DNA from: Halorubrum sp. GN11_10-6_MGM
GTDB lineage: Archaea; Halobacteriota; Halobacteria; Halobacteriales; Haloferacaceae
Length of the DNA: 64,000 bases
Direction: 5' to 3'
Assembly: GCF_005435165.1 (NCBI RefSeq)
Contig: NZ_SGUC01000008.1
Location: forward strand, 1 to 64,000
Positions 5,064 to 42,563 of the stretch are shown in pieces; the stretch's first letter is position 1; each line of letters starts with the position of its first letter. Made by a program: the position numbers and the translations under genes. The notes below the pieces were generated by a model. The model was not told where the DNA came from, did not search any database, and saw nothing but the letters and a program-made list of their open reading frames with translations.

Positions 5064-5498
5064 TTACTTCTCAATTCCGAGTCTGTCCGCCAGCTCGCCT
5101 TCATGATCAACTGCAAACTCCACAAGAGCCTCCATGAAATCAGCGTGCTTTTCGATCCCACCATCACCCGCTATCTTGGATTGCCCATCAAGACGATCGT
5201 AGAGGTTGTTGAGCTGATCTGCCTTCGTTTCTGGCAGATACATCGCGAGTTGCCGGCGGTTCCGAGTTGAGTCTGGATCCGGATTCGGCCCCGGCTTACT
5301 TGTATTATCTGTAGTACTCGAATTACCCGTATTATACGAGTTATCTGTAGTACCTGTACTATCCGTGTTATCTGTCGTATCCGAGTGACTCATATTAGTA
5401 CCTGCCTCGTCGTCGCTGCTCTCATCTGAATCGCTATCACGCGAATCCGCTCGACGGTCATTGAATCGTTCGCCGAGTTCTTCTTTTGGATCAGTCAT
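5064..5498 (-). CDS. Small partner protein of ParA (putative partition protein)
   Basis: The protein is about 144 residues from the ATG at 5498, which overlaps the parA stop in an ATGACTGA arrangement, so the two are translationally coupled. The N-terminal half is acidic and then a low-complexity tract of Thr, Asp, Asn, Ser and Gly (about residues 35-70). The C-terminal half (RRQLAMYLPE onward) looks like a compact helical DNA-binding domain. By position it should be the centromere-binding or adaptor protein of the ParA system. The low-complexity tract is encoded by DNA repeats that share the ATAATACGGG core with the parA upstream region. I do not recognise a named family. Confidence 0.6.
   Translation of the reverse strand: MTDPKEELGERFNDRRADSRDSDSDESSDDEAGTNMSHSDTTDNTDSTGTTDNSYNTGNSSTTDNTSKPGPNPDPDSTRNRRQLAMYLPETKADQLNNLYDRLDGQSKIAGDGGIEKHADFMEALVEFAVDHEGELADRLGIEK
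5290..5395. repeat. Imperfect tandem repeat inside the ParA-partner gene
   Basis: TTATCTGTAGTAC recurs at 5305 and 5341 and in variant form at 5368, giving units of about 36 and 27 bp rich in GTAGTAC/GTACTAC. The core CCCGTATTAT (inverse ATAATACGGG) is also found upstream of parA at about 6323-6332. The tract encodes the Thr/Asn/Asp-rich linker. It may be an intragenic binding site for the partition protein; this is inference. Confidence 0.4.
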
Positions 5499-6297
5499 CG
5501 TTGAGGGATTCAACCTGTTCGGCGATAGTACTGTACTTGGTCCGTAGCTGGTCTATCTTGTCTGCGTCCCACGGGTACCCCGCATCATCCGGGTCATAGG
5601 CGAAGACCGACGTCCGGTATTCGATTGCGTGCTCGACAGCTGCCCAGTCCGGGATCTCGAAGACATAGTCTTCGCCAAACGCCTCGATGAACCATGTCCG
5701 CATCTCACTACTGACGCCGTCCTGTCCCACCTCGTTCAGCACAGCAGCTACTGTCGAAATCTGCACGTCGTCGAACTTGTCCTCGAGCGTGTCGATCTCG
5801 TCGAACAGAATCTCGAGTGAATCTCTCGCGATGGTGTTCGCGTGAGTCGGGAAGAGCACGTTCTCTGCGGCCAGCAGAGCACCATCAGCAAGTGGGCCGA
5901 GGTTCGGTGGCGAGTCAATCACGACGTAGTCGTACTCTGCTGTGAGCCGGTCGAGAGCGATCTTCAGCGCTTCTACCCCACGTGCTTCCGAGTACAAGTG
6001 CTTCTCCAATCTGAAGTTTCGTATATGGGATGGCACTATATCGAACTCATCACCGTGGACGATCAGCTCGTCAAGATCGTCAAGTGAGAGCTGGCCCATC
6101 TCGGAGAGCACGTCGTAGAGTGCATACTCTCCCTCGCGATACTGCTCTCGGTATCCAAGTTTGAGCGTCAACCCACCCTGTGGATCCGCATCAACAGCGA
6201 GTATATCATGGCCTCTGTCAGCAAGCGCGCCAGCGAGGTTGATACTCGTTGTTGTCTTGCCAACGCCGCCCTTCTGCATCCCGACGTCGACTCGCAT
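5491..6297 (-). CDS. parA: ParA-family partition ATPase
   Basis: ParA-type ATPases bind DNA when loaded with ATP and position plasmids or chromosome regions through a partner protein. The N-terminus has the deviant Walker A motif KGGVGKTT with its signature Lys, followed by LAVDADPQGGLT and VVIDSPPNLG (Walker A' and B). The length of 268 residues fits plasmid-type and small chromosomal ParA proteins. It is the first gene of a coupled pair with the 5064-5498 gene. The upstream region to 6377 has CCTGTAT and ATAATACGGG motifs that could be autoregulatory sites. Its presence suggests that this segment is, or came from, a plasmid or integrative element. Confidence 0.88.
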   Translation of the reverse strand: MRVDVGMQKGGVGKTTTSINLAGALADRGHDILAVDADPQGGLTLKLGYREQYREGEYALYDVLSEMGQLSLDDLDELIVHGDEFDIVPSHIRNFRLEKHLYSEARGVEALKIALDRLTAEYDYVVIDSPPNLGPLADGALLAAENVLFPTHANTIARDSLEILFDEIDTLEDKFDDVQISTVAAVLNEVGQDGVSSEMRTWFIEAFGEDYVFEIPDWAAVEHAIEYRTSVFAYDPDDAGYPWDADKIDQLRTKYSTIAEQVESLNDD

Positions 6298-12345: not shown

Positions 12346-14448
12346 TTATTCATGAGTCATAGGCGGGTCGAGATGCACTCCTTTTGGCTCATAGTCATGA
12401 TGGACTGTCCCGTCCATCTGGTATACCCACAAAAGGTAGTCTTCAATCCCAGTTTCTCCTAACCGACCCCAGTTAGTGTATTCAAATCCAACTTGCATAG
12501 CAGCCTCCCACACTTCTGCTCCTTGGCGAATGAGATGCGCTGCTAAACTTGGTCTGAGGTTGGAATCAAAGCAATTTCGCTGGCGGTCTATCCCTGATTT
12601 TTTAGCTATTTTCTGAATATATCCTGTCACACCCCCTTTGCCAATTGTATCGATATCAGTTATTTTCGATTTGTCATGCCATTTTAAAAGTCCTTCAAGT
12701 GGGAGTTCGTGCGCTTCGTCGGAGCTAGGAGGATGCCATCTCTTCGGGATTTGGAGAACCCAGTCTTCGGTAGTTGCTATGTGTTCGGACGGCACGACAA
12801 TTAGTGTATCATGTCGATCACTATACAACCGATCGAGCCATTCTGTACTGAATTCTCCCAGTAATGGCGTTGTCAGGCCGGTGAAAGCAGAGAGAAGGCC
12901 GATGATCTTAGTGATTGGATCATCATACTGAACGGCAGTTTCAACAAATGCGCTGTACTCTCGTTCTTTGAGTGGCACCCTCACGTGTGGTCTTAGATTT
13001 GCCCGGACGCATGCTTGCCACCACCGGCCAAACCTGTCCATATAACACGTATAAGAGTACTTTCCAGAGACCTCGACTTCTCTGGGTGTTGGTGCTTTAT
13101 TTCCATTCGCAAGGCGCTGGAGTTCACGGAGTAACTGCTTATCAGAGTAATAATGGTAGGATGGAGGCTCACACCCGGCGGCTTTGACTGCATCAGACCA
13201 AGTCCCGTATCGCTGTATAATCGTTTTTGCAGCGTATTTTCCTTTCTCATCGTATCTCGGAGAGGTTGGTGCACGTTCTCGTTCGTCTGAATGTTTGCGG
13301 ATGTCAGATAGAAGATCTGAACTAGGAATGTCTCGGTATTGATTTGGTTCATATCCAGCTGCCTTGAGCGCGCTGCTGTAGCTTCCGAACCGTTTGTAGA
13401 GTGTGTCCGCGTGGTAGGTCCCATACTCATTATACTGCATCACAGTTGGCGTCTCCCCAACCTTTTTTTGAACCTCCTTAATATCTGTCAGTAAATGTTT
13501 ATTTTCAATATTGACCTCACGAACAGGCACGTACCCAGCTGCTCTGATGCCCTCGTTGTAACTTCCAAAATGATAGACTAATGTACTGGTAGAGAACTCG
13601 CCGTGAGTTCCGTATTGGTCATACGTAGGTGGCCCTCCGAGCACTTTTGCAACTTTCTGGATATCAAGTATCAGTTCAGTGTCCGAGACAGGCTGCTTTC
13701 GATTCGGCTCATATCCGATCTCTTTCAATGCAGTGCCGAAACTTCCGAAACGCTTCCCAAGCGTATCTGCATGGTAATCCCCGTGTTCGTTGTATTGATC
13801 TCGTGTTGGTGTTTCACCGAGATTATCAGTAACCTCCGCAAGATTAGTTAACAGTTCCTCTGCTGGAATATCTATCCGCGAATTAACATCGATATCAGCG
13901 GATTTGAGAGCGTTATTGTATGTCCCAAATATATTGGTGAGACGACCGAGGCTGTGCTCTCCGTGTTGATCATACTGATGACTGGTTGGTGTCTTACCGA
14001 GCTTTGATTGGACACGCTGTAGATCGGAGAGTAGCTCACTTTTTGAGGCAGCAGTATGCCTGTTGAGATCATATCCAGCAACTCTAATTGCGTTGTTGTA
14101 ACTTCCGAACTCACGGACAAGCGTATTTGCTGCGTGGTCCCCATGTTTCTTGTACTGATGTTGTGTCGGTGTCCCCTCGACAACATCAGCAACTCTTCGA
14201 AGATCATCAATTAGCTGATTTTTTGAGATATTTAATCCAGAATCACTCGGATCTGCTACCTGTTGGTTTGGTTCGAGTCCAGCAGTCCTAATTGCGTCGT
14301 TGTAGGACTCAAAACGGCTCACGAGGGTATGTCGGCTATGATTACCATGCTTTTGATATTCTGCCACTGTGGGTGTTTTTTTGAGTTGGTCAGCGACTCT
14401 CTGGAGATCGGAGATCAATTGTTTCTTGGGTATTTTGCGGCCCGGCAT
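12346..14448 (-). CDS. Homing-endonuclease-associated repeat array fused to degenerate tyrosine-recombinase-like domain
   Basis: The 700-residue protein has eight tandem repeats of about 55-60 residues (about residues 8-470), each with LLSDLQRV, KTPT, YxxHGxYS, TLxxRFGSYNxALKAAGYEPN-like blocks. These match the homing-endonuclease-associated (HNH_repeat, PF18780) unit, a short DNA-binding helical module. The C-terminal ~210 residues resemble a tyrosine recombinase: LLSAFTGL..LLGEFSTEWLDRLY, then LRPSLAAHLIRQGAEVWEA and YLLWVY. The usual first Arg and the catalytic His residues are missing, so it is probably not active alone. It lies 5 bp downstream of an intact recombinase gene. I infer that it targets or helps that enzyme. 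Confidence 0.7.
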   Translation of the reverse strand: MPGRKIPKKQLISDLQRVADQLKKTPTVAEYQKHGNHSRHTLVSRFESYNDAIRTAGLEPNQQVADPSDSGLNISKNQLIDDLRRVADVVEGTPTQHQYKKHGDHAANTLVREFGSYNNAIRVAGYDLNRHTAASKSELLSDLQRVQSKLGKTPTSHQYDQHGEHSLGRLTNIFGTYNNALKSADIDVNSRIDIPAEELLTNLAEVTDNLGETPTRDQYNEHGDYHADTLGKRFGSFGTALKEIGYEPNRKQPVSDTELILDIQKVAKVLGGPPTYDQYGTHGEFSTSTLVYHFGSYNEGIRAAGYVPVREVNIENKHLLTDIKEVQKKVGETPTVMQYNEYGTYHADTLYKRFGSYSSALKAAGYEPNQYRDIPSSDLLSDIRKHSDERERAPTSPRYDEKGKYAAKTIIQRYGTWSDAVKAAGCEPPSYHYYSDKQLLRELQRLANGNKAPTPREVEVSGKYSYTCYMDRFGRWWQACVRANLRPHVRVPLKEREYSAFVETAVQYDDPITKIIGLLSAFTGLTTPLLGEFSTEWLDRLYSDRHDTLIVVPSEHIATTEDWVLQIPKRWHPPSSDEAHELPLEGLLKWHDKSKITDIDTIGKGGVTGYIQKIAKKSGIDRQRNCFDSNLRPSLAAHLIRQGAEVWEAAMQVGFEYTNWGRLGETGIEDYLLWVYQMDGTVHHDYEPKGVHLDPPMTHE

Positions 14449-14453
14449 CTGAG

Positions 14454-15281
14454 TTAAAACATGGACTTATCTACATTTTTATCGAGCTCATTTCGTGCGA
14501 AATTCACGTACCGGTAGAAGGTCTCCTCAAGTTTGTGGCCGGTCTTAGTCATTGCGTATGCCGTTCTTGTGTCGTTCCGTGCCAGTTGCGTACAATAGCT
14601 TGCTCTCATGTCGTGTGCTACTATATCGGGGATCTTATCACCTTCCTTGTTTGTCCCAAATTTCCGAATTTGATCGTTTGGCACACCTTCTTGTATAAGT
14701 CGTTTCCTCCGCAATGTGGGGTTTATATCAGATTTAGCGCCGACTGCGCGGACCGCTTTATTAGCAAATCCAGTAGAAAAACCGTCTTTGCCATCTGCTT
14801 GAATCATGTCGAATCCGTATTTGCTCCCAGCTGGCGCAGTGGGTTCATCGAATGCGAAATAGCGTTCGCAACGATCCTTCAATCCGAAGTATTCCACCTC
14901 TCCGGTTGCATGATTCTTGTAAGAATTTGGGATAAGTAGCTGACGACCAGCAGATGTGGGTGTTTTGGGTGTGTAACCACCATCACCTGACCTCTCGCAA
15001 GAGCTGCAGACATTTTTGTTGCTGTCAGGCCCCTTTCGAGCTTTGTCAATCTCTTTGCGGCAGTTGTCGAAGTCAGGAACATCAAGGTACAGTTCATCTC
15101 CTCGGTAAGTGAACCAAAATTTATGAACGTGACCACAAGTATCATTTCTTATACCAGTACCGAGAAGGAGGTGTGCTGTCATCGCTTTGTGTGGATCAAC
15201 GAGATCTTCATCGGCTGTGAGCACATCGACGAACATTTCTTGCCGGTTCTTGTGGAGAGGAATCGTTTTTCGTCGGGACAT
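14454..15281 (-). CDS. Tyrosine recombinase (integrase) catalytic protein
   Basis: The C-terminal part keeps the catalytic set: Arg in LLLGTGIRNDT, H-x-x-R in IVAHDMRASYCTQL, His in KTGHKLEETF and a Tyr in YRYV. This is enough for DNA cleavage through a 3'-phosphotyrosine. A Cys pair (CSSCERSG, with DTCGH and NCRK nearby) may bind zinc. I chose ATG 15281 (MSRRKTIPL), since the 34 residues from 15383 are AT-rich non-family sequence. At about 275 residues it lacks a long N-terminal core-binding domain, which the repeat protein encoded 5 bp downstream may replace. It is likely the integrase of the surrounding element. Confidence 0.75.
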   Translation of the reverse strand: MSRRKTIPLHKNRQEMFVDVLTADEDLVDPHKAMTAHLLLGTGIRNDTCGHVHKFWFTYRGDELYLDVPDFDNCRKEIDKARKGPDSNKNVCSSCERSGDGGYTPKTPTSAGRQLLIPNSYKNHATGEVEYFGLKDRCERYFAFDEPTAPAGSKYGFDMIQADGKDGFSTGFANKAVRAVGAKSDINPTLRRKRLIQEGVPNDQIRKFGTNKEGDKIPDIVAHDMRASYCTQLARNDTRTAYAMTKTGHKLEETFYRYVNFARNELDKNVDKSMF

Positions 15282-15699
15282 TTTGTTCTTGTTGTGAAAA
15301 GTCAAGTATTGGAGTGTAAAACCCTTGGGGTAAACTATCGGAATAAGATTTTCACAGATCTGCCGATAGAGAGTTTCTTTCATTTATATATAGTTGATAT
15401 TTTTTCTATTCCGATATTCCGCCACGGAGTATCGGAATCCTATCCCCGATATATCATATCTTCTATGTTATTATCACGAATGCTTTTTCACCCTACGTGA
15501 TAGATTTCATATGATTTGGCTTGAGCAAGTATAGGCATGTTGCATTGAACAAAAGAGAATGTCATGTGTAAAATAATTCCTTTCGGTTGTATTATTTTAC
15601 TACCGTTATCTGTCATTATGATACAGAGATCTCACCTATTCTAATCCGATATATGAGGCAGGGTTAGACATTTTACCCATGGTCGCCCATGTGCCTAGT
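15282..15699. promoter_or_regulatory. AT-rich control region with repeated TCCGATA sites
   Basis: A 14-bp inverted repeat with one mismatch and a 3-nt loop occupies 15408-15438 (ATTCCGATATTCCG / CGGAGTATCGGAAT). Half sites with the same core occur at 15335-15347 (CTATCGGAATAAG), near 15447 (CCCCGATATATC) and near 15643 (AATCCGATATATG). The region lies between the recombinase gene and a divergent AbrB gene, so either AbrB or the recombinase may bind here. It could also contain the attachment site. Confidence 0.5.
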
Positions 15700-15891: not shown

Positions 15892-16155
15892 AGCTGACGC
15901 TGGTTGCGGCAAGTGGATTGAGGCAGAGAAATTGGATCTGCCTCACTCCGGGTGGACTTCCTTGGCCGGGATATGTCCGCCTATTCCTTGTCGTCCCGGG
16001 TATTAGGGTCTTACTGTTTTTTGACCTGACTCCACGGGCTGACTCCAATCGAGATAATGCCGTGAGTGTTGGTAGCGCGCACGCGGCGAGCTCACCTGCT
16101 GTTGATCACGACGAAGATCGGGACGGTGGCTCCAAAGTTGGAGCTGGAGGCTGCT
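15892..16155 (+). other. Leader region of the DUF5817-like gene with hairpins
   Basis: GAGGCAG (about 15919-15925) and CTGCCTC (about 15938-15944) pair, with an 11-14 nt loop, ahead of the giant gene. Its paralogue at 29396 also has a hairpin-rich leader. No gene is seen here. Confidence 0.35.
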
Positions 16156-18870
16156 GTGAGTAAACCCGCCGACAGCACTCCGATAGACACCAGATCTTCG
16201 GGTACAACCCCTGGGGTCGACGCCGGGACCACCTACTCGCAGACGCCAAGTCTCGACGGGATTGTCGTTCACGATCCCGAATCAACCGCGACCGGCCTCT
16301 GGACGCAACTCACGGATCCATGGAGTGGCGCTGGACTCGCCGAGGCAATTGTCATCGCCGTGCGCGAACTCGTTACAGACAAGAGTCCTGTCGAGGCACA
16401 TACACTGCTCGAGGACTTCGTCGACGATGCGCTCGATGGGGCACTTGCCCATGTCCTGCGGTCGTTGGCAGCGAGCCAGTCTGATCAGCGGTTCTGGAGG
16501 GCGCTTGTGACGCTGCCGCAGCTCGGGAGCGCCCGGCCGATGGGTTGTCGGTCCGACCTCGAGGACACCCACGCGGCGCTTGCACCGCTCGTAGAGAGCA
16601 CGCACACGCCAACCGTCTCGATCCGGCTACCTGGCGGGTTTCGCGATGTCGACGCCGAGACGCGCCGATCGTGGTGTCATCTCGTCGCCGCTCTCGGCCA
16701 AGCAGCAGACGTTCGACTCGTCTGTTCAGGCGTCGATCGAGCGTGGCTCGCACATCACCATCGCGACGATCTCCCCGGCGTTAGTGATCGGTCGGATTCA
16801 GAGCTTGATGAGAACGCCCTCAAGACCGCGCTGGACGTCGTCGACGTTGGCAGCCGTCACGCCCGGGTGCTGTCGCTGCTCGCCGAGGAGGACACGGAGA
16901 CGCTCGCCTACAGCCGCCTGTACAGCGCGTTCAGCGTGAATCATTCACGTGTACGGCAAGTCATTGGCGACCTCGTCGACGTCGAACTCGTCGAAACATA
17001 TGGCTCATCCCAAGAACGGCGTGTCGAGTTGACTACGGCTGGACGTCAGTTCCATGAGCAAGAAATCGCTGTACAGCGGCGACTTGACGAGTGCGTTAGC
17101 AAATCTCGAAAACTCTCCACTGATAGCCGTGTAACCCCGCGTACACACGGGGAGGGTCCGGACCAGACTGAGACCACACCATCTAGCACCGCTGACCGCC
17201 ACCGTCTCCCTTCTCACCACGAAACCCGCTACTGTGACCGACGTACAGCTGCCGCAGCCCTTGGAACAGCAACTGAGTCTGGGGTATCAGTGGTCAATTA
17301 CCCAGTTGCCCCACAAGACGATCGGGCAGAAGGCCGGTGGCATCATGAAGACGGCCACCTCGCCGTTACTGCCGAGGGTGATAACCCCCTGCAGGTGTGG
17401 ACCACGCTGGCGTTAGCTCTCGCCGATCATCGGACCTTCGACCAAATCCTCACCAAACACCGACTTGAGGACCACGGTGTACTCGACATGCTTGAGGACG
17501 GCAGGACGGTTCTCCGGGAGATGCGGAATATCGGCTGGCTCCCTGATGAGGTCGACTCCTATGACGACCTCCGTGGTGCGTTCCTCGAGGCGGCGGCCGA
17601 ACTGGCCGAACTCACTGGGAAATATGCTGAAGCTGAGGATGATGAGCTCCGTGGCCCGATCACTCGGGATGCCCTCGGACTGGCTGGATCGCTGACGCAT
17701 CTCCTTGACCTCGTCGACGTGGAGCTCACTCGAGTCGTGAAGCTTCCCGAGTTTTCGCGGCGGTTTGACGACGATCGTCGCGACGCCTTGTTCAACTCGC
17801 TCGCTATTGGCTCAGCCATCGGGAGCAACTACGGCCACCACGTTGCCTACCGACAGCTGTTCGAGGATCGGACTGACAAGCGACAGCAGGCGTTCGACCC
17901 GACTGTCGACGCCGCTGATCCATGGGCTCGACTCATCGGTTCGTGGACGCTGGTTGGGGACTTCGCTGGGAAGACTGAGGCCGTGGCCGACGCTCTTCGC
18001 GAGCATTTCGGCGGCCTTGACCCACACGAGGATGCCCCGGAGATCGCTATCCGTAGTGAGGTACGGACTGAGCCGACGCGCCGTCAAGTTACGGAGACGG
18101 CCCGTCGGATGCTCGCGACCAAGGACCTCCGACTCACTCCCGAGGCGACGTCCGTCCTCCACGGCCTCGCTCGGACCCCATTCGATGTCGCTGACGCCCT
18201 CCAGTATCTCGCCGGCGACAATGATGGCCGCCGGGTTGATGCTGCCGAGATCCGCTACGCTCTCGCCCAGTTAGATCCCGGCCGACTCCTCCGGGGGATC
18301 GACGGCCGACGGACCACGCCCCGAAAACTTGTCTCGACGCTCCTCGAGGCTGACCGCCCGATAAGTGGGGCCGATCTCGACGAGCGGGCCGATGTCTCAA
18401 CTCGGTCGCGACGAGATCATCTCGCCGATCTCGTTGAGGTCGGTCTCGTCGAGGAGACCGGGCGGGTCTACCGGCTCACCCTCTCGTTCGACGCCGCCAA
18501 TGGCGCCGACGCCGAGCGCTACACCGACGTATGGCCGGCACTTGTCGCGGATCCGGAGATGTCGCCATCGGTCCACGTCGCTGCGAAGGTGCTCCGAGTC
18601 AGTAGGGAGCACCACGGTCCGGGTGACCCCGTCGAGACAGTGGGGTGGCCGTATACTGGCGTTAGTGATCCACCCGACCTTCGCGAGCTCTCAACATCAC
18701 GGCCATATCTCGATGATATCCTCCCAGCGCTGTGGGGTATCCGTGAACGCACCGAGTATGTCGATGATCCGGGTGTCACTCCCGCCCTGAGTACTGCTCC
18801 GCTTCGTGCCGGCCCATCAGTCGACCAGACAGCGCTCCAAGATGTAAGTGACGAGGGTGCTACAGGATAA
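16156..18870 (+). CDS. Giant DUF5817-like protein lacking the zinc ribbon
   Basis: The product is about 904 residues, paralogous to the 26187-29396 protein along most of its length: DPWSGAGLAEAIVIAVRELV against the matching ALAVRELVGG region, SIRLPGGFRDVD against VRIDESFREIG, NPLQVWTTLALALADH against NPMQWAVCTARSLADT, RRFDDDRRDALFNSLAIGSAIGSNYG against the SDFDDEKLSSIAKFVGINSAIGSKYG region. A winged-helix part (VSTRSRRDHLADLVEVGLVEETGRVYRLT) lies near the C-terminus and another near residues 260-310. I chose GTG 16156, preceded by GGAGG at 16143. The protein lacks the N-terminal zinc ribbon of its paralogue. Function is unknown; the winged helices point to DNA binding. Confidence 0.7.
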   Translation: MSKPADSTPIDTRSSGTTPGVDAGTTYSQTPSLDGIVVHDPESTATGLWTQLTDPWSGAGLAEAIVIAVRELVTDKSPVEAHTLLEDFVDDALDGALAHVLRSLAASQSDQRFWRALVTLPQLGSARPMGCRSDLEDTHAALAPLVESTHTPTVSIRLPGGFRDVDAETRRSWCHLVAALGQAADVRLVCSGVDRAWLAHHHRDDLPGVSDRSDSELDENALKTALDVVDVGSRHARVLSLLAEEDTETLAYSRLYSAFSVNHSRVRQVIGDLVDVELVETYGSSQERRVELTTAGRQFHEQEIAVQRRLDECVSKSRKLSTDSRVTPRTHGEGPDQTETTPSSTADRHRLPSHHETRYCDRRTAAAALGTATESGVSVVNYPVAPQDDRAEGRWHHEDGHLAVTAEGDNPLQVWTTLALALADHRTFDQILTKHRLEDHGVLDMLEDGRTVLREMRNIGWLPDEVDSYDDLRGAFLEAAAELAELTGKYAEAEDDELRGPITRDALGLAGSLTHLLDLVDVELTRVVKLPEFSRRFDDDRRDALFNSLAIGSAIGSNYGHHVAYRQLFEDRTDKRQQAFDPTVDAADPWARLIGSWTLVGDFAGKTEAVADALREHFGGLDPHEDAPEIAIRSEVRTEPTRRQVTETARRMLATKDLRLTPEATSVLHGLARTPFDVADALQYLAGDNDGRRVDAAEIRYALAQLDPGRLLRGIDGRRTTPRKLVSTLLEADRPISGADLDERADVSTRSRRDHLADLVEVGLVEETGRVYRLTLSFDAANGADAERYTDVWPALVADPEMSPSVHVAAKVLRVSREHHGPGDPVETVGWPYTGVSDPPDLRELSTSRPYLDDILPALWGIRERTEYVDDPGVTPALSTAPLRAGPSVDQTALQDVSDEGATG

Positions 18871-20853: not shown

Positions 20854-21455
20854 CAGCAAACTCCTCTGGTAATCCCGACATCGTCAATCCTGAGATGAAG
20901 TTGGAAGATGTTCGCGAAGGAATAGACGCCAACACATGTGAAGGACGGGGACGAGAAACTGCTTCTGGCCGGGGATACAACGCGGAACGCCTCGCTAACG
21001 CCATATTTAGTGAATTGGGATTGATTAATCGGTGGTCAGTACAACCTCACGTTGACGCCTACATTCGCGGTGAGGTACCCTACTATATAGAGGTCAAGTC
21101 CTGCGTCAACCGGTATCAGAGTAGCAACAAAGAGTTGGGTCGATACGGTCAGTTCCGGATCTGGTGGCCTCATCATAACCGACTCCAAGCTGAAAACTCA
21201 GTTTACGATTCACGAACAGCGATTTACTTTTTTGTCGTGTATGCCGTTATAGATGGGATCGAAAAGGAAGTGGGAAAACTGATTGTACCTGTTGAGAAGA
21301 TTGACGACGTTCTCGATAGGTGGTCTCTGGAAGACCATGTGACGATGGGTGAGCAACGATGCCGTCAAATATCGTGGCATCTCCTTCTGAAGCGATTGGG
21401 CGTTTCGATAGATGAATTCAAATCTGAAGATATTATCGACCTCACAGATGAGTGA
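20850..21455 (+). CDS. PD-(D/E)XK nuclease-like protein
   Basis: This 201-residue protein shows the core of the PD-(D/E)XK fold: GYNAERLANAIFSELG with its Glu, VQPHVDAYIRG with the Asp, and YYIEVKSCVNR giving the E-x-K pair, at about residues 48, 70 and 80-82. A helical half with FRIWWPHH and the C-terminal SWHLLLKRLGVS follows. No repeat or membrane part is present. It overlaps the small upstream gene and the downstream exonuclease gene, so the three form one operon. A decayed copy exists at 8484-12099. The function may be defence or element maintenance; this is inferred. Confidence 0.65.
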   Translation: MTANSSGNPDIVNPEMKLEDVREGIDANTCEGRGRETASGRGYNAERLANAIFSELGLINRWSVQPHVDAYIRGEVPYYIEVKSCVNRYQSSNKELGRYGQFRIWWPHHNRLQAENSVYDSRTAIYFFVVYAVIDGIEKEVGKLIVPVEKIDDVLDRWSLEDHVTMGEQRCRQISWHLLLKRLGVSIDEFKSEDIIDLTDE

Positions 21456-22104
21456 CTCACGACTCGCTCCAGTTGCGTTTGACATCGAGACTTCTGGATT
21501 TGATGCGGACGCGGTCATCACCGTTGCTGGGTTCGCCCACGGTCTCGGTGAATCGCTTATTCTCAATACTGGCGGCCATAGCGAGGTAGATCGCAACACA
21601 CTGGTGACGGCACTTGATGAGGAGTCAACTGGGACGGTCCAGCTCGAAGTCGTTGCTGACGAGGGCAAACTCCTTGAGCTGGTCGCGTCGTTTGTCACGG
21701 ACCAACTCGATGGTGACACCCACTACGTGACCGCGTTCAACGGCGAGACGTGGAACGGTGGGTTCGATCTTCCCTTCTGTCGGACGCGATTTCTCCAACA
21801 TGGACTACGATGGCCCTTTGGTGACATCGCGTACGCCGACATGATACAGGTGGTTGACCGGTTCAATACACAGGATCAGACTGATCTCGTTGGGGTGTAT
21901 GATGTCCTTGTTGGTGAGGAGACGTGCGACCCGTTCGACGATAGCGCTGAAGCCGTTGACGCGTTCCAGGCCGGCGACTGGCTTCCACTCTGTAAGCACA
22001 ACCTAGCCGACATCCAGCGAACCCGGAAGTTGGCTGAACTGGCCGGGCAGTTTGTCGCTCAGTCGGATTTCAAGATGAAGAATCTCCAGCCACCACATCG
22101 ATGA
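21448..22104 (+). CDS. DEDD-type 3'-5' exonuclease (RNase H-like)
   Basis: The 218-residue protein begins near FDIETSGFDADAVITVAG, the D-x-E first motif of DnaQ-like exonucleases. The second motif is HYVTAFNGETWNGGFDLPFC with N...D, and the last is CKHNLADIQRTRKLAELAGQF. Two metal ions would be held by these acids to cleave nucleic acid 3' to 5'. ATG 21448 overlaps the nuclease stop (GATGAGTGA), so I prefer it over the longer start at 21412. Together with the PD-(D/E)XK gene it forms a two-nuclease operon with no polymerase or helicase. Confidence 0.75.
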   Translation: MSDSRLAPVAFDIETSGFDADAVITVAGFAHGLGESLILNTGGHSEVDRNTLVTALDEESTGTVQLEVVADEGKLLELVASFVTDQLDGDTHYVTAFNGETWNGGFDLPFCRTRFLQHGLRWPFGDIAYADMIQVVDRFNTQDQTDLVGVYDVLVGEETCDPFDDSAEAVDAFQAGDWLPLCKHNLADIQRTRKLAELAGQFVAQSDFKMKNLQPPHR

Positions 22105-26186: not shown

Positions 26187-29100
26187 TCAGCTGATAGGCT
26201 CCCCAGTAGTCGCTTCTTGAAGACTCAACTGACGCGGTCGTCTCCCCATTATCTCAGTCTCGCGTTCAACCAGAGCGCCACCAGCGACAGTGGCGTCCTC
26301 TCGATAGCACGCTCTCGCAGTCACTGCCCACAGCGCTGGCAGCACCTCATCGAGTAATGGCCACGGCTCTGTGAGTTCCAGCAAGACGTCGCCAGCGAAG
26401 CCGACTTCCTCTGATGAGACTGGTCCATCTGGCCCGTGATGCTCCCGAGCTGTCCGTAACGCTCCAGCCGCAGCGTGGACGTCGTTGCTGACGGTCGGAT
26501 CGCTCACCCACTGTGGGTAGATATCCCGGTACCGCTCAGGCAGTTCTCCATCGTCCCGGTCCGTTTCCGCAAACGACAGCTGGAGTCGGTAGCCAGCATC
26601 CGTCATCGCGACGATTCCGGCGTCAACGAGGTCGGGGAGGTGGTCACGAAGCGAGCGAGCCGACACGCCGGCTCTCTCGGCGAGTGCTGACTGCGTCAGG
26701 AATTCTTCAGCGCCGGCGAGTGCCACGAGGGCCTTTCGCGGCGTTGACGACGCATCCCGCAGTACCTGCTCTGGTGACAGGGCTGTAATGATACGCCGGA
26801 GCTCGACAGACCGGATATGTCGCGTCTCGGCTTCCGGCTCTAGCGCTCGGGCAACGCCGTTCGCGGTTGCGAGCGGTGACCGACACAGTCCGTGAAGCAC
26901 CGATACTGCCTCTGGAGTCGTGAGGAGATTCTTCTCCTCAAGCGCTTCTTCGAGCAGATCCCGGTACTGGGCTCGGCTCGTCGACGTCTGAACAGGGACG
27001 CGGACGCCGATCTCGGGGGCGTCATCCCGGATGTCCTTCGGCGAGACATTGGACCGAAGCTTCTCAGCGAACACTTCCTGGCGCTCGCCGTAATCGGCAA
27101 ATAGACACCACGAGCCGATGAGTTCGCCGAACGGTTCTGCGGCGTCGACATCGACGTCCATCGACCACCGAAGCACCTCCTCACGGTCCTCGAACAGTTG
27201 CCGGAACACCGACGCCATCCCGTACTTCGACCCGATCGCCGAGTTGATCCCGACGAACTTCGCGATACTCGAGAGCTTCTCGTCATCGAAATCACTCTTC
27301 AACCGGGGCATCTGACCGATTCGAAGGATGTCGACACCGGCGAAGTCCAGTAATCGGGTCATCACGCCGATCACACCGAGAGACTCGGTGAGAATCTTCG
27401 TCCGGAAGGCTGTCCGAGAGTTATACTCGCGGTACTCGCCGTGAGTCATGTCCCGCGTCATTTCGCAAATCTCCTCGAGAACAGCTTGTATTCGGTCCCC
27501 AAACTCACCGATATCATCAACCAGCTCGTCTTCCTCAGCGATCCACCCGAGGCACGCACTATTTTGGAGAACTCCAGGTGCCTCTTGGAGGAGTCGGCGG
27601 AAGTCGCCATTCTCGTCGAGCCGGTCGTCAGTTAGCAGATTGTCCCAGACAAATGTATCAGCCAACGAGCGAGCAGTACAGACCGCCCACTGCATCGGAT
27701 TGTCGACCTCGGCGGCCACAGCGAGGCGATTCTCGTCCCAGTCCATGTAGCGGCGCGGAGCCGCTCGATCGTCCCACTCGGAGACCGCCGCATCGACAGT
27801 TGCGACGCCATTCTCGGGGGTCGCCGCGACGGCGGCCTGGTACGTAGAGCGGGGAAGCGGCTGGATGGTGTGGAGTGCTGGGAGGCGGTCGCGGCTCCAG
27901 CCGGTCCCCCCCTCACGTGTGTGCGCGGGTCTAGACTCCAGATTGTCGGCGGATTTTCCGGTCCGACTCACAAAATTTTGAAGAGGTTTCTGTCGCGTTC
28001 CAGATCGGCCGATTTCTTCGAGGAATTGTACCCCAGCCGGGCGAATTGCGACTTTGCTCCCGTCGCTAGTCGCGATGCGATCGGTCACGAGTTCGTGTTT
28101 GCGAAGCTGCCGCAGGTGGTACGCGACGTTGTTCCGGGACTGGTCGGGGTCATCGTACGGAGCAGCCTCATAGAGCGCCTCGTAGCCAGCAGTCTGGCCG
28201 GCTTCCGCACCAATACGGGCGAGGGTTGCGACTACTTCACCGTCCGTCTCAAGCGCCTCACACGCGGCGGCGACGTGGTCGTCGACAGTTCCGTGAGCGC
28301 GCTGGCCTGTATCGCATTGTGAACTCACATCGAACGCTGCCACGTCCGGGACGTTCCCATCCAGTTCGTCGACGTCGATTTCCGGATCATAACTCCAAGC
28401 AAAGCGCCGCATCCAGATGGACGACTCAAACACGACCCGGACGTCCACACCGTGGCCAAGCCAACTGAGCAGCTGGACCATCTGCCGGCGTTGGTCGGCG
28501 TGGCCGATCTCCCGGAATGACTCATCGATCCGCACGGTGAGTGTCGGGGTATGGTCTGCGGCTGCGAGCAACGGCTTCACAACCCGGCGAACATCCGCAA
28601 GCTCACCAGGGAACCCGATGCCAAGCGGGCCGAACTCTGCGCTTCCAAAGCTCTCGAGCAGTTCGAGCGCCTGTTGGTGTTGTTCGGACTCAACGTCTTT
28701 ACACAAACTCAACAGCGTCGACGCAACGATCGACCCGTTCAGGCTCTTCGCGTCTGGAAGGGCCTCTCGCTCGACTGTTCCGAGCTGATCGTCGATAATC
28801 GATTCAAGCCTCTGCCAGGCGACCCCATCAGCGACGCCGCCGACGAGTTCGCGCACGGCGAGCGCAATATCGGCTTCGAGGACAGCAACGAGACGCTGCC
28901 AGAGTTCACCCGGTCGGCTCTCTTTATCGAGGCGGACTGTCCCAGACGACACGGCCGGGTACTGCTGGACCATCCAGAGACCCGCATCTTCATCATAGCG
29001 GAGATCTCCAAGCTGACGAGAGTTCTGATCGGTTTTGTTGGGTGCCTCTCCTTGTTCTGTGTCGAGGTGCTGGTCGTCTGAGAAGGCCCCTGTAAGGACT

Positions 29101-29396
29101 TGTACGCCGAGCGGTTGGCCGACGAGGTTGCGGTCCCATTCGTCTTCAAGATCGCCGTAGCGGCCAACCTCGTCGAACTCAGCGCTCGCATTGCGAGTGC
29201 TCGCGAGAAGCGCCGACCGTTGCTCAACAGCGTCCTCCCACGTGTCTGCTCTCGCTCGACGTCGCAACTGGCTATCTGAATGCTGACTCCCACACCGAGG
29301 ACACTCACGAGCGGTAGCAGTTCCACTACTGACAGCGTCCTCGATGACCCAGTGCTGGCTACAGTTGGAACAGCCAACGACAGCGAAGCGACTCAC
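26187..29396 (-). CDS. Giant DUF5817 protein with N-terminal zinc ribbon
   Basis: The 1069-residue protein opens with a zinc ribbon (VVGCSNCSQHW...CPRCGSQH), the mark of DUF5817. The remainder is paralogous to the 16156-18870 protein. Three winged-helix-like stretches can be seen: one around residues 400-470 (RNNVAYHLRQLRKHELV), and one near the end (AGVSARSLRDHLPDLVDAGIVAMTDAGYRLQLSF). The start GTG at 29396 has GGAGGTG 14 bp upstream. It is likely a DNA-binding protein of mobile elements. The gene lies in the opposite direction to its paralogue, facing it across the accessory block. Confidence 0.75.
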   Translation of the reverse strand: MSRFAVVGCSNCSQHWVIEDAVSSGTATARECPRCGSQHSDSQLRRRARADTWEDAVEQRSALLASTRNASAEFDEVGRYGDLEDEWDRNLVGQPLGVQVLTGAFSDDQHLDTEQGEAPNKTDQNSRQLGDLRYDEDAGLWMVQQYPAVSSGTVRLDKESRPGELWQRLVAVLEADIALAVRELVGGVADGVAWQRLESIIDDQLGTVEREALPDAKSLNGSIVASTLLSLCKDVESEQHQQALELLESFGSAEFGPLGIGFPGELADVRRVVKPLLAAADHTPTLTVRIDESFREIGHADQRRQMVQLLSWLGHGVDVRVVFESSIWMRRFAWSYDPEIDVDELDGNVPDVAAFDVSSQCDTGQRAHGTVDDHVAAACEALETDGEVVATLARIGAEAGQTAGYEALYEAAPYDDPDQSRNNVAYHLRQLRKHELVTDRIATSDGSKVAIRPAGVQFLEEIGRSGTRQKPLQNFVSRTGKSADNLESRPAHTREGGTGWSRDRLPALHTIQPLPRSTYQAAVAATPENGVATVDAAVSEWDDRAAPRRYMDWDENRLAVAAEVDNPMQWAVCTARSLADTFVWDNLLTDDRLDENGDFRRLLQEAPGVLQNSACLGWIAEEDELVDDIGEFGDRIQAVLEEICEMTRDMTHGEYREYNSRTAFRTKILTESLGVIGVMTRLLDFAGVDILRIGQMPRLKSDFDDEKLSSIAKFVGINSAIGSKYGMASVFRQLFEDREEVLRWSMDVDVDAAEPFGELIGSWCLFADYGERQEVFAEKLRSNVSPKDIRDDAPEIGVRVPVQTSTSRAQYRDLLEEALEEKNLLTTPEAVSVLHGLCRSPLATANGVARALEPEAETRHIRSVELRRIITALSPEQVLRDASSTPRKALVALAGAEEFLTQSALAERAGVSARSLRDHLPDLVDAGIVAMTDAGYRLQLSFAETDRDDGELPERYRDIYPQWVSDPTVSNDVHAAAGALRTAREHHGPDGPVSSEEVGFAGDVLLELTEPWPLLDEVLPALWAVTARACYREDATVAGGALVERETEIMGRRPRQLSLQEATTGEPIS

Positions 29397-31885: not shown

Positions 31886-34800
31886 ATGCAAAGTTCACTC
31901 ACCTACCGCACGAATCGTGACCTGTTCTCTAACTACTACTTGGACGAGCACCTCCCTGAGACGGAGGAGTGGGACGAGGTCGACGATGAAGAACTAGAAG
32001 CAGCGTACGACGACATCATCGATCTCTATGAACGGGAGAAGGGTACGGCCCCGAAGCGGAACGAGTCCCAGTTGGAGGAGAAGTTCATCCGACCGATGTT
32101 CCGGAAGCTGGGGATTCCCTTCGAAGTTGAGGAGAGCACAAGTCGGACGCAGCGCCGACCAGACTACGGTTTCTTCGAGACTGAAGACGCTACACGTGAC
32201 GCTTTCGAGCGCCGCGAGGGAGACGGTGACTTCTACGAGAACGCAGTCGCTGTTGCTGACGCTAAGCGCTGGGGACGGCCGCTTGACACACGGGGCAGCG
32301 GGGAACATGAGCGCGATTTCGAGAATCCGAGCTACCAAATCCATGTCTACCTCCAGGAGACACCCGCCCGATGGGCGGTGCTGACAGACGGAAAGAAGTG
32401 GCGGCTCTACTACGGGCCAACGAGCCACCAGCTCGATTCCTACTACGAGGTCGATCTTCCCACTATCCTCGAAAAGGGAGATCTTGAGGATTTCAAGTAT
32501 TTCTACCTCTTTTTCCGCCACAGTGCGTTCCTTGAGGACACTGGGGGAGACTGTTTCCTCGATGACGTTTACGATGAGTCGAACGTTTTCGCCCAAGACC
32601 TCGGAGAGGATCTACAAGATAACATCTATGAAGCGATTAAGATTCTCTCAGAAGGGTATCTACAGTATCCCGATAACGACCTCGACGAAGCAGACCTTGA
32701 ACTTATTCACGACTCCTCTCTCATCTATCTCTACCGGCTTATTTTCATTCTCTACGCAGAAGCTGAAGGCCGTGACCTGTTGGACACGGACAACGAGATT
32801 TACGAGGAATCCTACAGCCTAAATGCGCTCAAACAGGAAATCGCCGAGGAACTCGACAGTGGCGACCCAAAGTACCGTGACTGGCAGGATGACCTGAGCT
32901 CGCGGCTCAATGAGCTGTTCGAGCTGATCGACCAAGGGAGCAAATCGCGCGGAATACCAAAGAAAGACCTCCATATTCCGGCGTACAACGGTGGACTGTT
33001 TCGGACGGACCCGGACGAGGACGACAGCGCTGAGGCACAATTTCTCGCGGAACACACGGTTGGTGATGCGTATCTAGCCCGTGTCGTCGAACTACTCACG
33101 CGGAGTCAGCAAGCGAACGGCGGCGGAAAAATCTTCGTTGACTACTCTTCACTCGACGTGCGTCACCTCGGCAGTATTTATGAGGGACTCTTGGAGTACC
33201 AGCTACATGTCGCCGACGAACCGCTTACACTCGATGATGGCGAGTACGTCGAGGCAAACGAAGGCGACGGGGTATTCATTGAGACGGGTGAAGTGTACCT
33301 CACGACGGGGAGCGGAGAGCGCAAGGCGACAGGGTCGTACTACACTCCTGAGTACGTAGTCGAATATATCGTCGACGAAACGCTCGGTCCTCTTGTCGAC
33401 GATATCCGGGAGGACCTAGTCGGACAGACCACCTACCGGAAGGGCGATGAAGAGGCAGGAACGTTCGCGGAGGAATTTGCGGAGCGGATATTCGAATTGA
33501 AAATTCTCGATCCAGCGATGGGAAGCGGGCACTTCCTTACGAGCGCGGTTGACTACCTCGCACGCGAGATCATCGACGCTCAAGAACGGCAAGCGGCCCA
33601 ACAAGGGATCGAGACCGTCGAGGAAGATCACGACATTAACTGGGCGCGTCGAAAGGTCGCTCAGCGATGTATTTATGGAGTTGACCTGAACCCGCTCGCA
33701 ACTGAACTCGCAAAAGTCTCTCTGTGGCTGCGGACACTTGCGGCCGAGCAGCCTCTCGCGTTCCTCGATCATCACCTGAAGACAGGGAATTCGCTGGTCG
33801 GAAGCGATATCGAGGACGTTCTCGCTAATGGAGACAATTCAGGGGAAGGTGACGGACAGCTGACCTTACAGCAGTCGTTTGCTCACACGCGCCAGCGTGC
33901 CCTAGAACACGTGATGAACCGGTTCCAAGATCTCCTCTCCATTGACAATGAGACACTGGAAGACGCTAAAGAGATGGAAGATGTTTATGATGAGGTTCGC
34001 GACGATCCTCTCTACCAACATCTGCTAGCGATGGCAAACGTCCATACTGCGGCACAGTTTGGGTTGGACGTTCCAAGCGATGCCGATAAGCGGATGGCGG
34101 AGGCGCTGCGGAGCGATTCGTGGACGGACATTGAGGGGCAGGACTGGTTTGTGGACGCACAAACGATGGCCTCTGAAGAGCGCTTCTTCCACTGGGAATT
34201 GGAGTTCCCAGTCGCCTTTTACGATATAGACGGGGATCGGAGAGAAGATGCCGGGTTTGACGCAGTAATTGGAAATCCTCCATATATCAGCGTCACAAAC
34301 CTTGATCCGAAATTACGTCAATATCTCACAGATACAGAGGAATATCGGACTGCTACCGGCCGATACGATGCCTATATCGTATTCTTCGAAAAGAGCATCG
34401 AATTATCACGCCTGGGGGGGCTTACGTCTATGATTATACCCATTAAATGGGCAATCTACGGGAATGGAAGGGTTCTACGTGACATGCTATTAGAAGAAGT
34501 AAGCTTAGAATCGTTAATTAATATCTCACAAGCGGAGGTATTCGATGGCCCAACGACATATCCTTGTATACCTGTTGTGACGAATCAAATTCCTGCTCTG
34601 GATCAGGAGGTTTCGGTGATCAATATTCCACCGGATAATCCAGAATATATCTCCCAAGGACTAGAGTCGCTCCTTTCAACAGAATTGGCTGTTCGGATTC
34701 CATTAGAACGATTTAAACTTGCCCCACGAAAGGTATTCTGCCCATTTTTGAACGATCGGAATTGGCAGATCCACTCCAAACTTCACGAAAACTCCACCGA

Positions 34801-36103
34801 GGTTGGTGATAAGTACCGCTTGGAACAAGCAATCAGAATGGGTAGCGCCTCAGCACGTGAGAAACTATTTACTAATTCTCCTCCTGAAAATGAACGAGAT
34901 AACTACCATCCAGTTGTCGACGGTGAGCATATTGAACGGTTTACTGTCAACTGGGATGGGAGATATCTCAACTACGATCCCGATGAATTGTACAACGCAA
35001 AAAGCAAGGAGCTCCTAGATCAGCCGAAGATTCTCCTGAAACGTATCGCTGAAAGACTCACAGCAGCTTACGACGGTGGTGTTGATGGTGACTACTATTA
35101 CCCCCTAAACACCGTATATACGCTTACTAAAGAGCAGGGAACGATTGAAGATCAAGGAACACACCCACTATTTGAAACAGGGCTCTTGAATTCAACATTG
35201 CTCGATTGGGAATATAAGCTATTGTTCGCAGCTATTGGTATACGCGGAGGGTACATTGAATTCCGAGAATACATTGACCATCTGCCTCTCAAGAATATCT
35301 CATTTACTTCTACAGAAGACGAAAGATCTGAATTGGTAGATGAATATTGGAACACAGTAAGTGATCAGATCGAATCAGCAAATTTCGATGCTGCTGCCGC
35401 CGCAGAGAGTGTATTTGAATCTGAATCTCCCGAAGAGATATCTCACGATCTGATTGTGAAGGCGGTTGATACCATAGCTGAACGAAGACAGGAGGCAAAT
35501 CAGATAAACGTAGATTTGACCGATTATATCAACGATTATGAAAAAACAACCCCCGTCACAGATATTCCGGGATATCAACCAGCACCCGATAGGGGAACAA
35601 CTGTTCTTTCAAACACGACGGAATCTGCTGAGGGCTTAAGAGTAGGTAGTGCAGCTGTACAGAACAAACAGGGAAAAACTATCGTTCAACTCACGGCGCG
35701 ATACAAGCCCGATGATGAAGAGGACTATGAGACGGATCAGTGGGGGTACGCAGAAACAGAACCGATCACGGTTGCAGAATATATCGGTCTTACAAAGAAA
35801 CAGGAAGCGCTTGTATCTGAGTTTATCCCCTATGCTATCGAAGAGGCCGGTGGGTTTGCTGGGTTCCGAAGTAATGCGACTAAGACAAATTCGCTAATTG
35901 CTCGGTTTGAACAAATGGAAATTCCTGCGCTTGAAGATGTAGAGGACTCTTTGGACCTATTCCTTTCGAACAAACAACGGCACGACCGCCTAGTCCAAGG
36001 TTCCGATTCACTTGATTCATACGTCGACCACCTGGTTTTCAGGTTATACGATCTAAACGAAAATGAAATAAAACTTGTTATGAGGGGAGGTGTGTCTGGA
36101 TAG
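31886..36103 (+). CDS. Type IIG restriction-modification enzyme
   Basis: This 1405-residue protein fuses nuclease, methylase and specificity parts. Residues 60-130 hold a PD-(D/E)XK nuclease: LEEKFIRPMFRKLGIPFEVEES, PD92-93 in RRPDYGFF and D125-x-K127 in AVADAKRW. Around residue 540 is the S-adenosylmethionine motif LDPAMGSGHFLTSAVDYLA, and around residue 796 the catalytic motif GNPPYI, giving an N6-adenine methylase of Eco57I/MmeI type. The C-terminal ~600 residues would read DNA sequence. Base composition shifts by eye near 34250, just at the NPPY motif, from GC-rich to AT-rich codons, as if the specificity half had been swapped by recombination. No stop is present; it may be active. Confidence 0.88.
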   Translation: MQSSLTYRTNRDLFSNYYLDEHLPETEEWDEVDDEELEAAYDDIIDLYEREKGTAPKRNESQLEEKFIRPMFRKLGIPFEVEESTSRTQRRPDYGFFETEDATRDAFERREGDGDFYENAVAVADAKRWGRPLDTRGSGEHERDFENPSYQIHVYLQETPARWAVLTDGKKWRLYYGPTSHQLDSYYEVDLPTILEKGDLEDFKYFYLFFRHSAFLEDTGGDCFLDDVYDESNVFAQDLGEDLQDNIYEAIKILSEGYLQYPDNDLDEADLELIHDSSLIYLYRLIFILYAEAEGRDLLDTDNEIYEESYSLNALKQEIAEELDSGDPKYRDWQDDLSSRLNELFELIDQGSKSRGIPKKDLHIPAYNGGLFRTDPDEDDSAEAQFLAEHTVGDAYLARVVELLTRSQQANGGGKIFVDYSSLDVRHLGSIYEGLLEYQLHVADEPLTLDDGEYVEANEGDGVFIETGEVYLTTGSGERKATGSYYTPEYVVEYIVDETLGPLVDDIREDLVGQTTYRKGDEEAGTFAEEFAERIFELKILDPAMGSGHFLTSAVDYLAREIIDAQERQAAQQGIETVEEDHDINWARRKVAQRCIYGVDLNPLATELAKVSLWLRTLAAEQPLAFLDHHLKTGNSLVGSDIEDVLANGDNSGEGDGQLTLQQSFAHTRQRALEHVMNRFQDLLSIDNETLEDAKEMEDVYDEVRDDPLYQHLLAMANVHTAAQFGLDVPSDADKRMAEALRSDSWTDIEGQDWFVDAQTMASEERFFHWELEFPVAFYDIDGDRREDAGFDAVIGNPPYISVTNLDPKLRQYLTDTEEYRTATGRYDAYIVFFEKSIELSRLGGLTSMIIPIKWAIYGNGRVLRDMLLEEVSLESLINISQAEVFDGPTTYPCIPVVTNQIPALDQEVSVINIPPDNPEYISQGLESLLSTELAVRIPLERFKLAPRKVFCPFLNDRNWQIHSKLHENSTEVGDKYRLEQAIRMGSASAREKLFTNSPPENERDNYHPVVDGEHIERFTVNWDGRYLNYDPDELYNAKSKELLDQPKILLKRIAERLTAAYDGGVDGDYYYPLNTVYTLTKEQGTIEDQGTHPLFETGLLNSTLLDWEYKLLFAAIGIRGGYIEFREYIDHLPLKNISFTSTEDERSELVDEYWNTVSDQIESANFDAAAAAESVFESESPEEISHDLIVKAVDTIAERRQEANQINVDLTDYINDYEKTTPVTDIPGYQPAPDRGTTVLSNTTESAEGLRVGSAAVQNKQGKTIVQLTARYKPDDEEDYETDQWGYAETEPITVAEYIGLTKKQEALVSEFIPYAIEEAGGFAGFRSNATKTNSLIARFEQMEIPALEDVEDSLDLFLSNKQRHDRLVQGSDSLDSYVDHLVFRLYDLNENEIKLVMRGGVSG

Positions 36104-41741: not shown

Positions 41742-42563
41742 ATGAGCGAAAACGGACCCGCGACCGCGGCGATCTATGCCCGCGTCTCGACCTCGGATCA
41801 GGACGTATCTCGGCAGCTCGACGAGGCGCACGAGCATTTGGAACGTCTCGGTGTGGAAGACATCGAGGAGTATCCAGAGATCGTCTCCGGCGCTGCCGAC
41901 ACCGACACTCGCGAGGTGTACAACCGACTCCTCGATGATGTCGAGACGGGACAGTTCGATCTCGTGGTCGTTCACGAAATCAGCCGGCTCTCTCGCCTCG
42001 GTCCGACTGAGATTCACGAGTTCATCCAACACTGCTTGGAACATGACACCGGCGTTGAGGCTCTCGACGTCGGCCTGAAAATTCACGTCGACGACGGCGA
42101 GCTCCAGCAGACAATATACAGCATGGTCGCTCGGTTGATGGGCGACCTCGCCCAGATCGAACACCAACAAAAACTCCAGCGAATCCGGTCGGGCGTCCGC
42201 GCTGCACAGTCTGCCGGAAAGTGGACTGGAAGACCACCTGCGGGGTTCGTCGTCGAAGATGGGTACCTCCGCGTGGATCCCGCCGAGTTCCTACACGTCC
42301 GTGAGGCTCTCGTCCGCGTCGACCGCGGTGATTCGTTCGCGACCGTCGCCGACGACACCGGCATCGCTGAGTCGACACTCCGGAGCCTCCACCAAGATCG
42401 TCGCGACCTCTACCTCAGCGGCGAGGCCGAGGATGAGCGCGTCGACGACGCACTCACCGACGTCCGCCCGCTGGAGGATGTACGGGCCGAGGATCCCGAC
42501 TTCGAAGAGCTACGCGAACGCGTCGAGCGGTTAGAGGAGGCCACGGACATCGACAACTGCTAG
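41742..42563 (+). CDS. Serine recombinase (resolvase/invertase family)
   Basis: The 273-residue protein has the catalytic N-terminal domain of small serine recombinases: AAIYARVSTSDQDVSRQL with nucleophile Ser16, VVVHEISRLSRLG, and the long E helix ending MVARLMGDLAQIEHQQKLQRIRSGVRAAQSAGKWTGRPP. A DNA-binding tail follows (EALVRVDRGDSFATVADDTGIAESTLRSLHQDR), then an acidic coiled coil. A TATA-like TTTAAATTG at 41715 fits a start at ATG 41742. It may resolve or invert a nearby element; its target sites are not evident. Confidence 0.9.
   Translation: MSENGPATAAIYARVSTSDQDVSRQLDEAHEHLERLGVEDIEEYPEIVSGAADTDTREVYNRLLDDVETGQFDLVVVHEISRLSRLGPTEIHEFIQHCLEHDTGVEALDVGLKIHVDDGELQQTIYSMVARLMGDLAQIEHQQKLQRIRSGVRAAQSAGKWTGRPPAGFVVEDGYLRVDPAEFLHVREALVRVDRGDSFATVADDTGIAESTLRSLHQDRRDLYLSGEAEDERVDDALTDVRPLEDVRAEDPDFEELRERVERLEEATDIDNC

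Follow-up and report, generated by a model that had tools for sequence, protein, structure and literature searches.

In Tn4430, the inverted repeats IR1-IR2 and the direct repeats DR1 and DR2 lie upstream of the recombinase gene, and recombination takes place at IR1-IR2, while Tn4651-type elements use a two-component resolvase in which the tyrosine recombinase TnpS is joined by a helper protein, TnpT (PMC7157771). Recombinase function can also be lost, as in MrpR, which is a DNA-binding repressor (PMC10516654), and archaeal tyrosine recombinases found in two pieces are known from the SSV-type (suicidal) integrases (PMC8371274). Here we analyze a gene pair located in a stretch of 64,000 nucleotides from Halorubrum sp. 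GN11_10-6_MGM (contig NZ_SGUC01000008.1; hereafter the window), in which a minimal tyrosine recombinase is followed by a partner protein that combines an array of HNH_repeat modules with a catalytically dead recombinase domain. Based on comparison with related loci, we lean towards the view that the two genes, together with about 170 bp of upstream DNA, constitute a single module for site-specific recombination on haloarchaeal plasmid replicons, made of a catalytic subunit and of a dead subunit with a DNA-reading or architectural role.

Both genes lie on the minus strand. The recombinase gene (15281..14454, encoding 275 aa) is separated by 5 bp from the partner gene that follows it (14448..12346, encoding 700 aa); coordinates, strand, and gap had been given correctly in the initial annotation of the region, which overstated the size of the partner in calling it giant. 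The upstream open reading frame (ORF) continues as far as position 15383, and homologues match the start at 15281; a longer recombinase starting at 15383 was ruled out, as the frame is not preserved in G109, another locus with the pair. When two Halorubrum species were compared, the ratio of nonsynonymous to synonymous substitution rates (dN/dS) was 0.09 for the recombinase, 0.28 for the array, and 0.15 for the dead domain, and none of the three is therefore decaying. The pair is a product of neither chance nor decay, and the dead domain is under purifying selection.

In the case of the recombinase, residues, alignment, and model all identify a protein reduced to its catalytic domain. The catalytic residues R45, K106, H223-x-x-R226, H249, and Y258 are conserved in all aligned pair members, the catalytic domain fills the 275 residues, and the N-terminal core-binding domain is absent, which bears out the earlier description of an intact tyrosine recombinase without a clear N-terminal DNA-binding half. 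The protein also carries a Cys-rich insert, with C74, C92, and C95 conserved. Its Pfam match to Phage_integrase is weak (E 0.0019), and the solved structures matched by a profile search include XerA, the Tn1549 Int, an archaeal XerC-like protein, IntI4, and XerD, while the predicted model matches XerH, Tn1549 Int, and Cre. The pair shares with XerC/XerD and XerA-dif, which serve resolution, the use of tyrosine recombinases, and XerA and XerH are in fact the best fold matches. XerC and XerD also form a two-protein complex, but both Xer subunits are full-length and active, unlike the pair described here.

The partner begins with eight HNH_repeat modules (residues 6-485; 12994..14433, minus strand), the number reported in the initial annotation and now counted both by Pfam (PF18780, E 1.5e-133) and by our own hidden Markov model (HMM). 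The array is probably DNA-binding, and that it reads DNA is an inference. No nuclease domain scored above cut-off, HNH_repeat being the only domain to pass and LAGLIDADG_3 (E 0.073) missing its threshold, and a homing endonuclease was accordingly rejected. The rest of the protein (residues 489-700; 12349..12984, minus strand) is, by alignment, profile, and fold, a degenerate tyrosine-recombinase catalytic domain. TGLT, TGLP, or SGMS replaces TGLR, with loss of the first Arg, and the catalytic Tyr is missing in most homologues; the absence of the first Arg and of the His had already been pointed out, and the loss extends to both the box-II and the GH-box His. When compared to recombinases with hhalign, this region aligned over most of its length (99.7 %, E 6.8e-27), and its profile recovered other haloarchaeal recombinases as well as the recombinase of the Halorussus pair, as did a single-sequence search. 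Structure prediction, which took in the last two repeats and the dead domain, gave a model with a predicted local distance difference test (pLDDT) score of 82.5 that matches XerA in Foldseek (E 1.6e-4) and the archaeal Xer 4a8e in VIA-align (Z 13.4, root-mean-square deviation 2.2 over 136 residues; Z up to 14 overall). The C-terminal domain proposed earlier to be recombinase-like has, in other words, a tyrosine-recombinase fold from which the catalytic residues are gone.

These features set the partner apart from the proteins it most resembles. MrpR, YopR, and SroF are among the fold matches of its model, and like MrpR and YopR of SP-beta it has the recombinase fold without the catalytic residues; those proteins, however, are stand-alone repressors with a core-binding domain of their own, and their pairing with an active minimal recombinase is not described. 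Similarly, TnpS and TnpT offer a precedent for a tyrosine recombinase with a helper protein (PMC7157771), but the TnpT helper is unrelated to recombinases and divergently encoded, whereas the helper here, a paralogue of the recombinase, bears an HNH_repeat array and is encoded downstream and in the same orientation. In the SSV-type integrases, integration splits the gene into pseudogene pieces, unlike the two intact co-directional genes found here, each with a recombinase-fold domain; a suicidal integrase of this type was ruled out, as a catalytic-fold domain is present in each of the two proteins and their genes lie together, uninterrupted, on autonomous plasmids.

Profile searches covered 391 genomes of the class, and named collections added to the list of loci. 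Strong recombinase matches were obtained in 6 of the 391 genomes and strong partner matches in the same six, with the two genes adjoining every time, so that the coupling first proposed from a single locus holds wherever either protein matched strongly; single-protein searches also found the pair side by side. Besides the window, the pair is present in Halorubrum aquaticum, Halobacterium hubeiense (pSTJ003), H. salinarum (pNRC100, pNRC200, and pHS1), Natronorubrum halalkaliphilum and Salinadaptatus halalkaliphilus (which carry the same element, 99.7 % identical over 14.4 kb), Halorussus marinus, Halovenus rubra, and Halonotius pteroides, the latter with two copies. The partner carries 3, 4, 5, 6, 8, or 9 copies of HNH_repeat depending on the locus. 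In one case, another Halobacterium (G288), a truncated recombinase remnant is found without partner. In an unrooted tree, the active domains form one clade (100/97) and the dead domains another (100/99), and the two jointly stand apart from other haloarchaeal recombinases (96/96). Recombinase and partner co-evolve, in that the distance matrices drawn from the identities of the active and of the dead domains correlate with r 0.87, a value reached in none of 5000 permutations. The simplest history would be a single duplication, after which one copy lost catalysis and the two were inherited together. A phage origin was rejected, as the phage records and viral contigs searched for the pair returned no match.

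Upstream of the recombinase gene we identified a candidate recombination site, which is new here. The putative core is the inverted repeat ATTCCGATACTCCG-TGG-CGGAATATCGGAAT (15408..15438, minus strand), centered 141.5 bp before the start codon, and two direct copies of the half-site, ATTCCGATAG at -63 (15335..15344, minus strand) and ACTCCAATAC at -34 (15306..15315, minus strand), are candidate accessory sites. The center of the inverted repeat is found at 141.5 bp in G109 as well, and at 143.5 bp in H. hubeiense, 144.5 bp in pNRC, 142.5 bp in Halovenus, and 148.5 bp in Halonotius copy A. From the window pair to G109, both arms change in a covarying manner (CCGATA/TATCGG to CCAATA/TATTGG), and the palindrome alone is significant by shuffling (P <= 0.01) in the window pair, G109, H. 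hubeiense, and Halonotius A. With the position preset from the window pair and H. hubeiense, a test of five other lineages taken jointly gave P 0.007, to which Halorussus and Natronorubrum contribute nothing. A direct copy of each lineage's own half-site occurs between -58 and -67 in seven loci and, less regularly, between -21 and -35; the half-site sequence itself varies by lineage, and the layout is preserved in most of them. An inverted-repeat core and two direct repeats directly before a tyrosine recombinase gene recall the TnpI-irs of Tn4430 and Tn5401 (PMC7157771), a likeness seen at the sequence level in the window pair, G109, H. hubeiense, and Halonotius A, and partial or weak in the other lineages. 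TnpI, however, is one protein within a Tn3-family transposon, whereas here a catalytic-domain-only enzyme and a dead paralogue are found on plasmid replicons, with no Tn3-family transposase TnpA annotated around the pair in the inspected stretches of pNRC200, pHS1, and pSTJ003.

Motifs placed upstream of an operon could also serve a repressor. The dead protein might be a regulator similar to MrpR or YopR that occupies the inverted repeat and half-sites as operators and controls the recombinase or RepH, with no part in strand exchange; dead recombinase-fold repressors do exist, as MrpR exemplifies (PMC10516654), and the fold matches mentioned above point in the same direction. Such a function would however leave unexplained why the small recombinase lacks a core-binding domain and why a second type of active/dead pair (see below) exists. 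The core, moreover, lies ~142 bp from the start codon, beyond the distance generally expected of a haloarchaeal promoter, and we judge it quite unlikely that repression accounts for the pair.

The replicons that host the pair are also informative. In pNRC200 and pHS1, RepH and the pair are divergently oriented, and both genes of the pair are annotated as hypothetical. The window has the same gene order, with a divergent RepH-like plasmid replication gene (16066..18870, plus strand; distantly related to pNRC RepH, at 27 % over 254 aa with E 2e-13), the pair, insertion sequences, and a ParA partition ATPase gene (5491..6297, minus strand) whose product shares 88 % identity with the ParA encoded after the pair in Halorussus marinus. 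When pNRC and Halorussus replicons are compared, identity is ~95 % over the RepH/origin side and ~96 % again from ~180 bp past the pair, while the recombinases are about 34 % and the partners about 26 % identical. This divergent block begins ~215 bp before the recombinase, thus taking in the candidate site, and pair and upstream site therefore appear to travel together and to have been swapped as one block between replicons. The motif GTCTGACG occurs at both junctions of the swapped block in pNRC and Halorussus, and also near the starts of ParA and RepH-like genes (L056 11770 and 15299; L052 7704 and 11627; window 6381 and 29725). Mobility of the block as a cassette via the direct repeat CGGTGTCTGACG found at the swap junctions was considered and not used as evidence, since the GTCTGACG motif recurs elsewhere in the loci.

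A natural break in pHSAL2 of H. salinarum 91-R6 might indicate where the DNA is cut. This plasmid carries RepH and its upstream region at 96 % identity to pNRC200, and lacks the pair. Identity stops at L056:11853, halfway through the core spacer TGGTTTC, and the pHSAL2 DNA beyond the break is the region 5' of another tyrosine integrase gene in pNRC200, pHS1, pHS2, and an H. noricense plasmid, the overlap at the junction being TGGT (4 bp). Compared with pNRC200, the junction has the orientation that an inversion with end points in the core (record position ~8806) and at position ~57459 would produce, as expected if the pair were a DNA inversion switch acting on plasmid segments. Only one such event was found, however, and neither the window nor the genome has another copy of the core, which makes a switch very improbable.

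The same junction, fusing half of the pNRC core to DNA 5' of an integrase gene, is also what integration could leave behind, and two further observations are compatible with a two-part integrase that would insert a plasmid or island into an attachment site on a chromosome or plasmid and excise it again: the nearest viral families are integrases, and the contig of the window pair, 108.7 kb long, also carries fni and other non-replicon genes. On the other side, the core is present in a single copy in its own genome even when up to 3 mismatches are allowed, and hence there is no attL/attR pair of core sequence; the copies of known context reside on autonomous plasmids, beside replication and partition genes; and, as noted, no viral contig or phage record was found with the pair. 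We regard this role as unlikely. The initial annotation had proposed a two-subunit integrase with the DNA-reading array on a separate polypeptide: the two-subunit recombinase is upheld on comparative grounds, and the integrase is not, given the single core copy, the RepH/ParA replicon context, and a layout resembling that of a resolution site.

The interpretation we prefer is that of a recombination module acting at the upstream site. The 275-aa catalytic subunit would cut and rejoin DNA in the spacer of the inverted-repeat core, and the HNH_repeat array of the partner would bind at the core, at the direct half-sites, and in the DNA around them, thereby supplying the core-binding and architectural functions missing from the small recombinase. 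The dead domain would most likely occupy the position of a recombinase in the synaptic assembly beside the active subunit, or dock on it. Strand exchange in the core by the small enzyme would then resolve plasmid multimers or cointegrates, the job we favor for the pair because its candidate site resembles the TnpI/IRS of Tn4430 in layout; as a by-product, the module would probably also regulate its own expression. It is possible, if somewhat doubtful, that the variable-length array (3 to 9 HNH_repeats) on the dead paralogue sets the target for an otherwise generic minimal recombinase, in which case specificity could be exchanged by a joint swap of array and site.

We acknowledge that several points weigh against the module as we propose it. 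In pNRC and Halovenus the palindrome alone is not significant by shuffling, and Natronorubrum/Salinadaptatus, Halorussus, and Halonotius copy B have only a weak palindrome or none. The direct repeats could equally be operators. The pHSAL2 junction is a single event involving a second place with a poor half-site at best, and could be illegitimate; for this reason the break supports, but does not prove, cleavage in the core. Nor is the module indispensable, since pHSAL2, which is a RepH plasmid, does without the pair. Finally, direct contact between the two proteins, DNA binding by the array, core cleavage, and the biological role are inferred.

A second type of pair, in which a small active and a degenerate recombinase gene adjoin or overlap and the array is missing, was found in five further haloarchaeal genomes (L128 7147-8726, L129 6578-8163, L126 4307-6125, L131 6197-7643, and L130 31-1592). 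In several cases the dead member has a C-terminal winged-helix-like domain, with a match to MarR_2, and two of the five pairs are near ParA. No convincing palindrome emerged when the upstream layout of the first type was looked for at these pairs. Because the second type lies outside the clade of the first in the tree, the active/dead arrangement may have evolved more than once. An RNase H-like gene is located near pairs of both types in different genera (window 21412-22104; L048 6477-7133; L053 2928-3602; L131 4792-5442).

Other features of the window and of related plasmids deserve mention. There are two RepH-like genes in the window (16066-18870 and 26187-29396), both distantly related to pNRC RepH, and the second shares 91 % identity with a counterpart from Halorubrum aquaticum. 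On a plasmid of Haloarcula pelagica (L076 7389-8609), a full-length integrase with a SAM-like domain is found directly upstream of ParA, the place taken by the pair in Halorussus. The contig of the tyrosine pair also encodes a serine resolvase-family recombinase (41742-42563; Resolvase N-terminal domain, E 4e-24), and a short ORF at 43925-44383 corresponds to the C-terminal part of a tyrosine integrase (152 aa, with a Cys-rich motif) and is probably a fragment. A 1482-aa protein with an apparent P-loop (GEGGVGKS) is encoded at 36908-41356, and the large ORF beside it (31886-36103) has a methyltransferase-type motif, NPPY; judged by eye only, the two might form a defense locus.

Two-component tyrosine resolvases (TnpS and TnpT), dead recombinase-fold repressors (MrpR), and TnpI-type sites are each known separately, and the papers searched did not describe a minimal active recombinase paired with a dead paralogue that bears a repeat array. 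In the open-access literature, including a keyword search of a 2021 review of archaeal tyrosine recombinases (PMC8371274), we found no description of the pair or of such a division of labor, and accounts may exist elsewhere. If our interpretation is correct, this would be a case of tyrosine recombination in which catalysis and DNA recognition reside on separate, co-evolving proteins, one being a dead copy of the other, and, should the array set the target, a natural instance of exchangeable recombinase specificity. The candidate site is testable. These results would also offer a function for two hypothetical genes that neighbor the replication gene on pNRC100 and pNRC200, the model haloarchaeal plasmids, and suggest what HNH_repeat proteins may do; such proteins are common among haloarchaea, with matches in 79 of the 170 genomes of the family.
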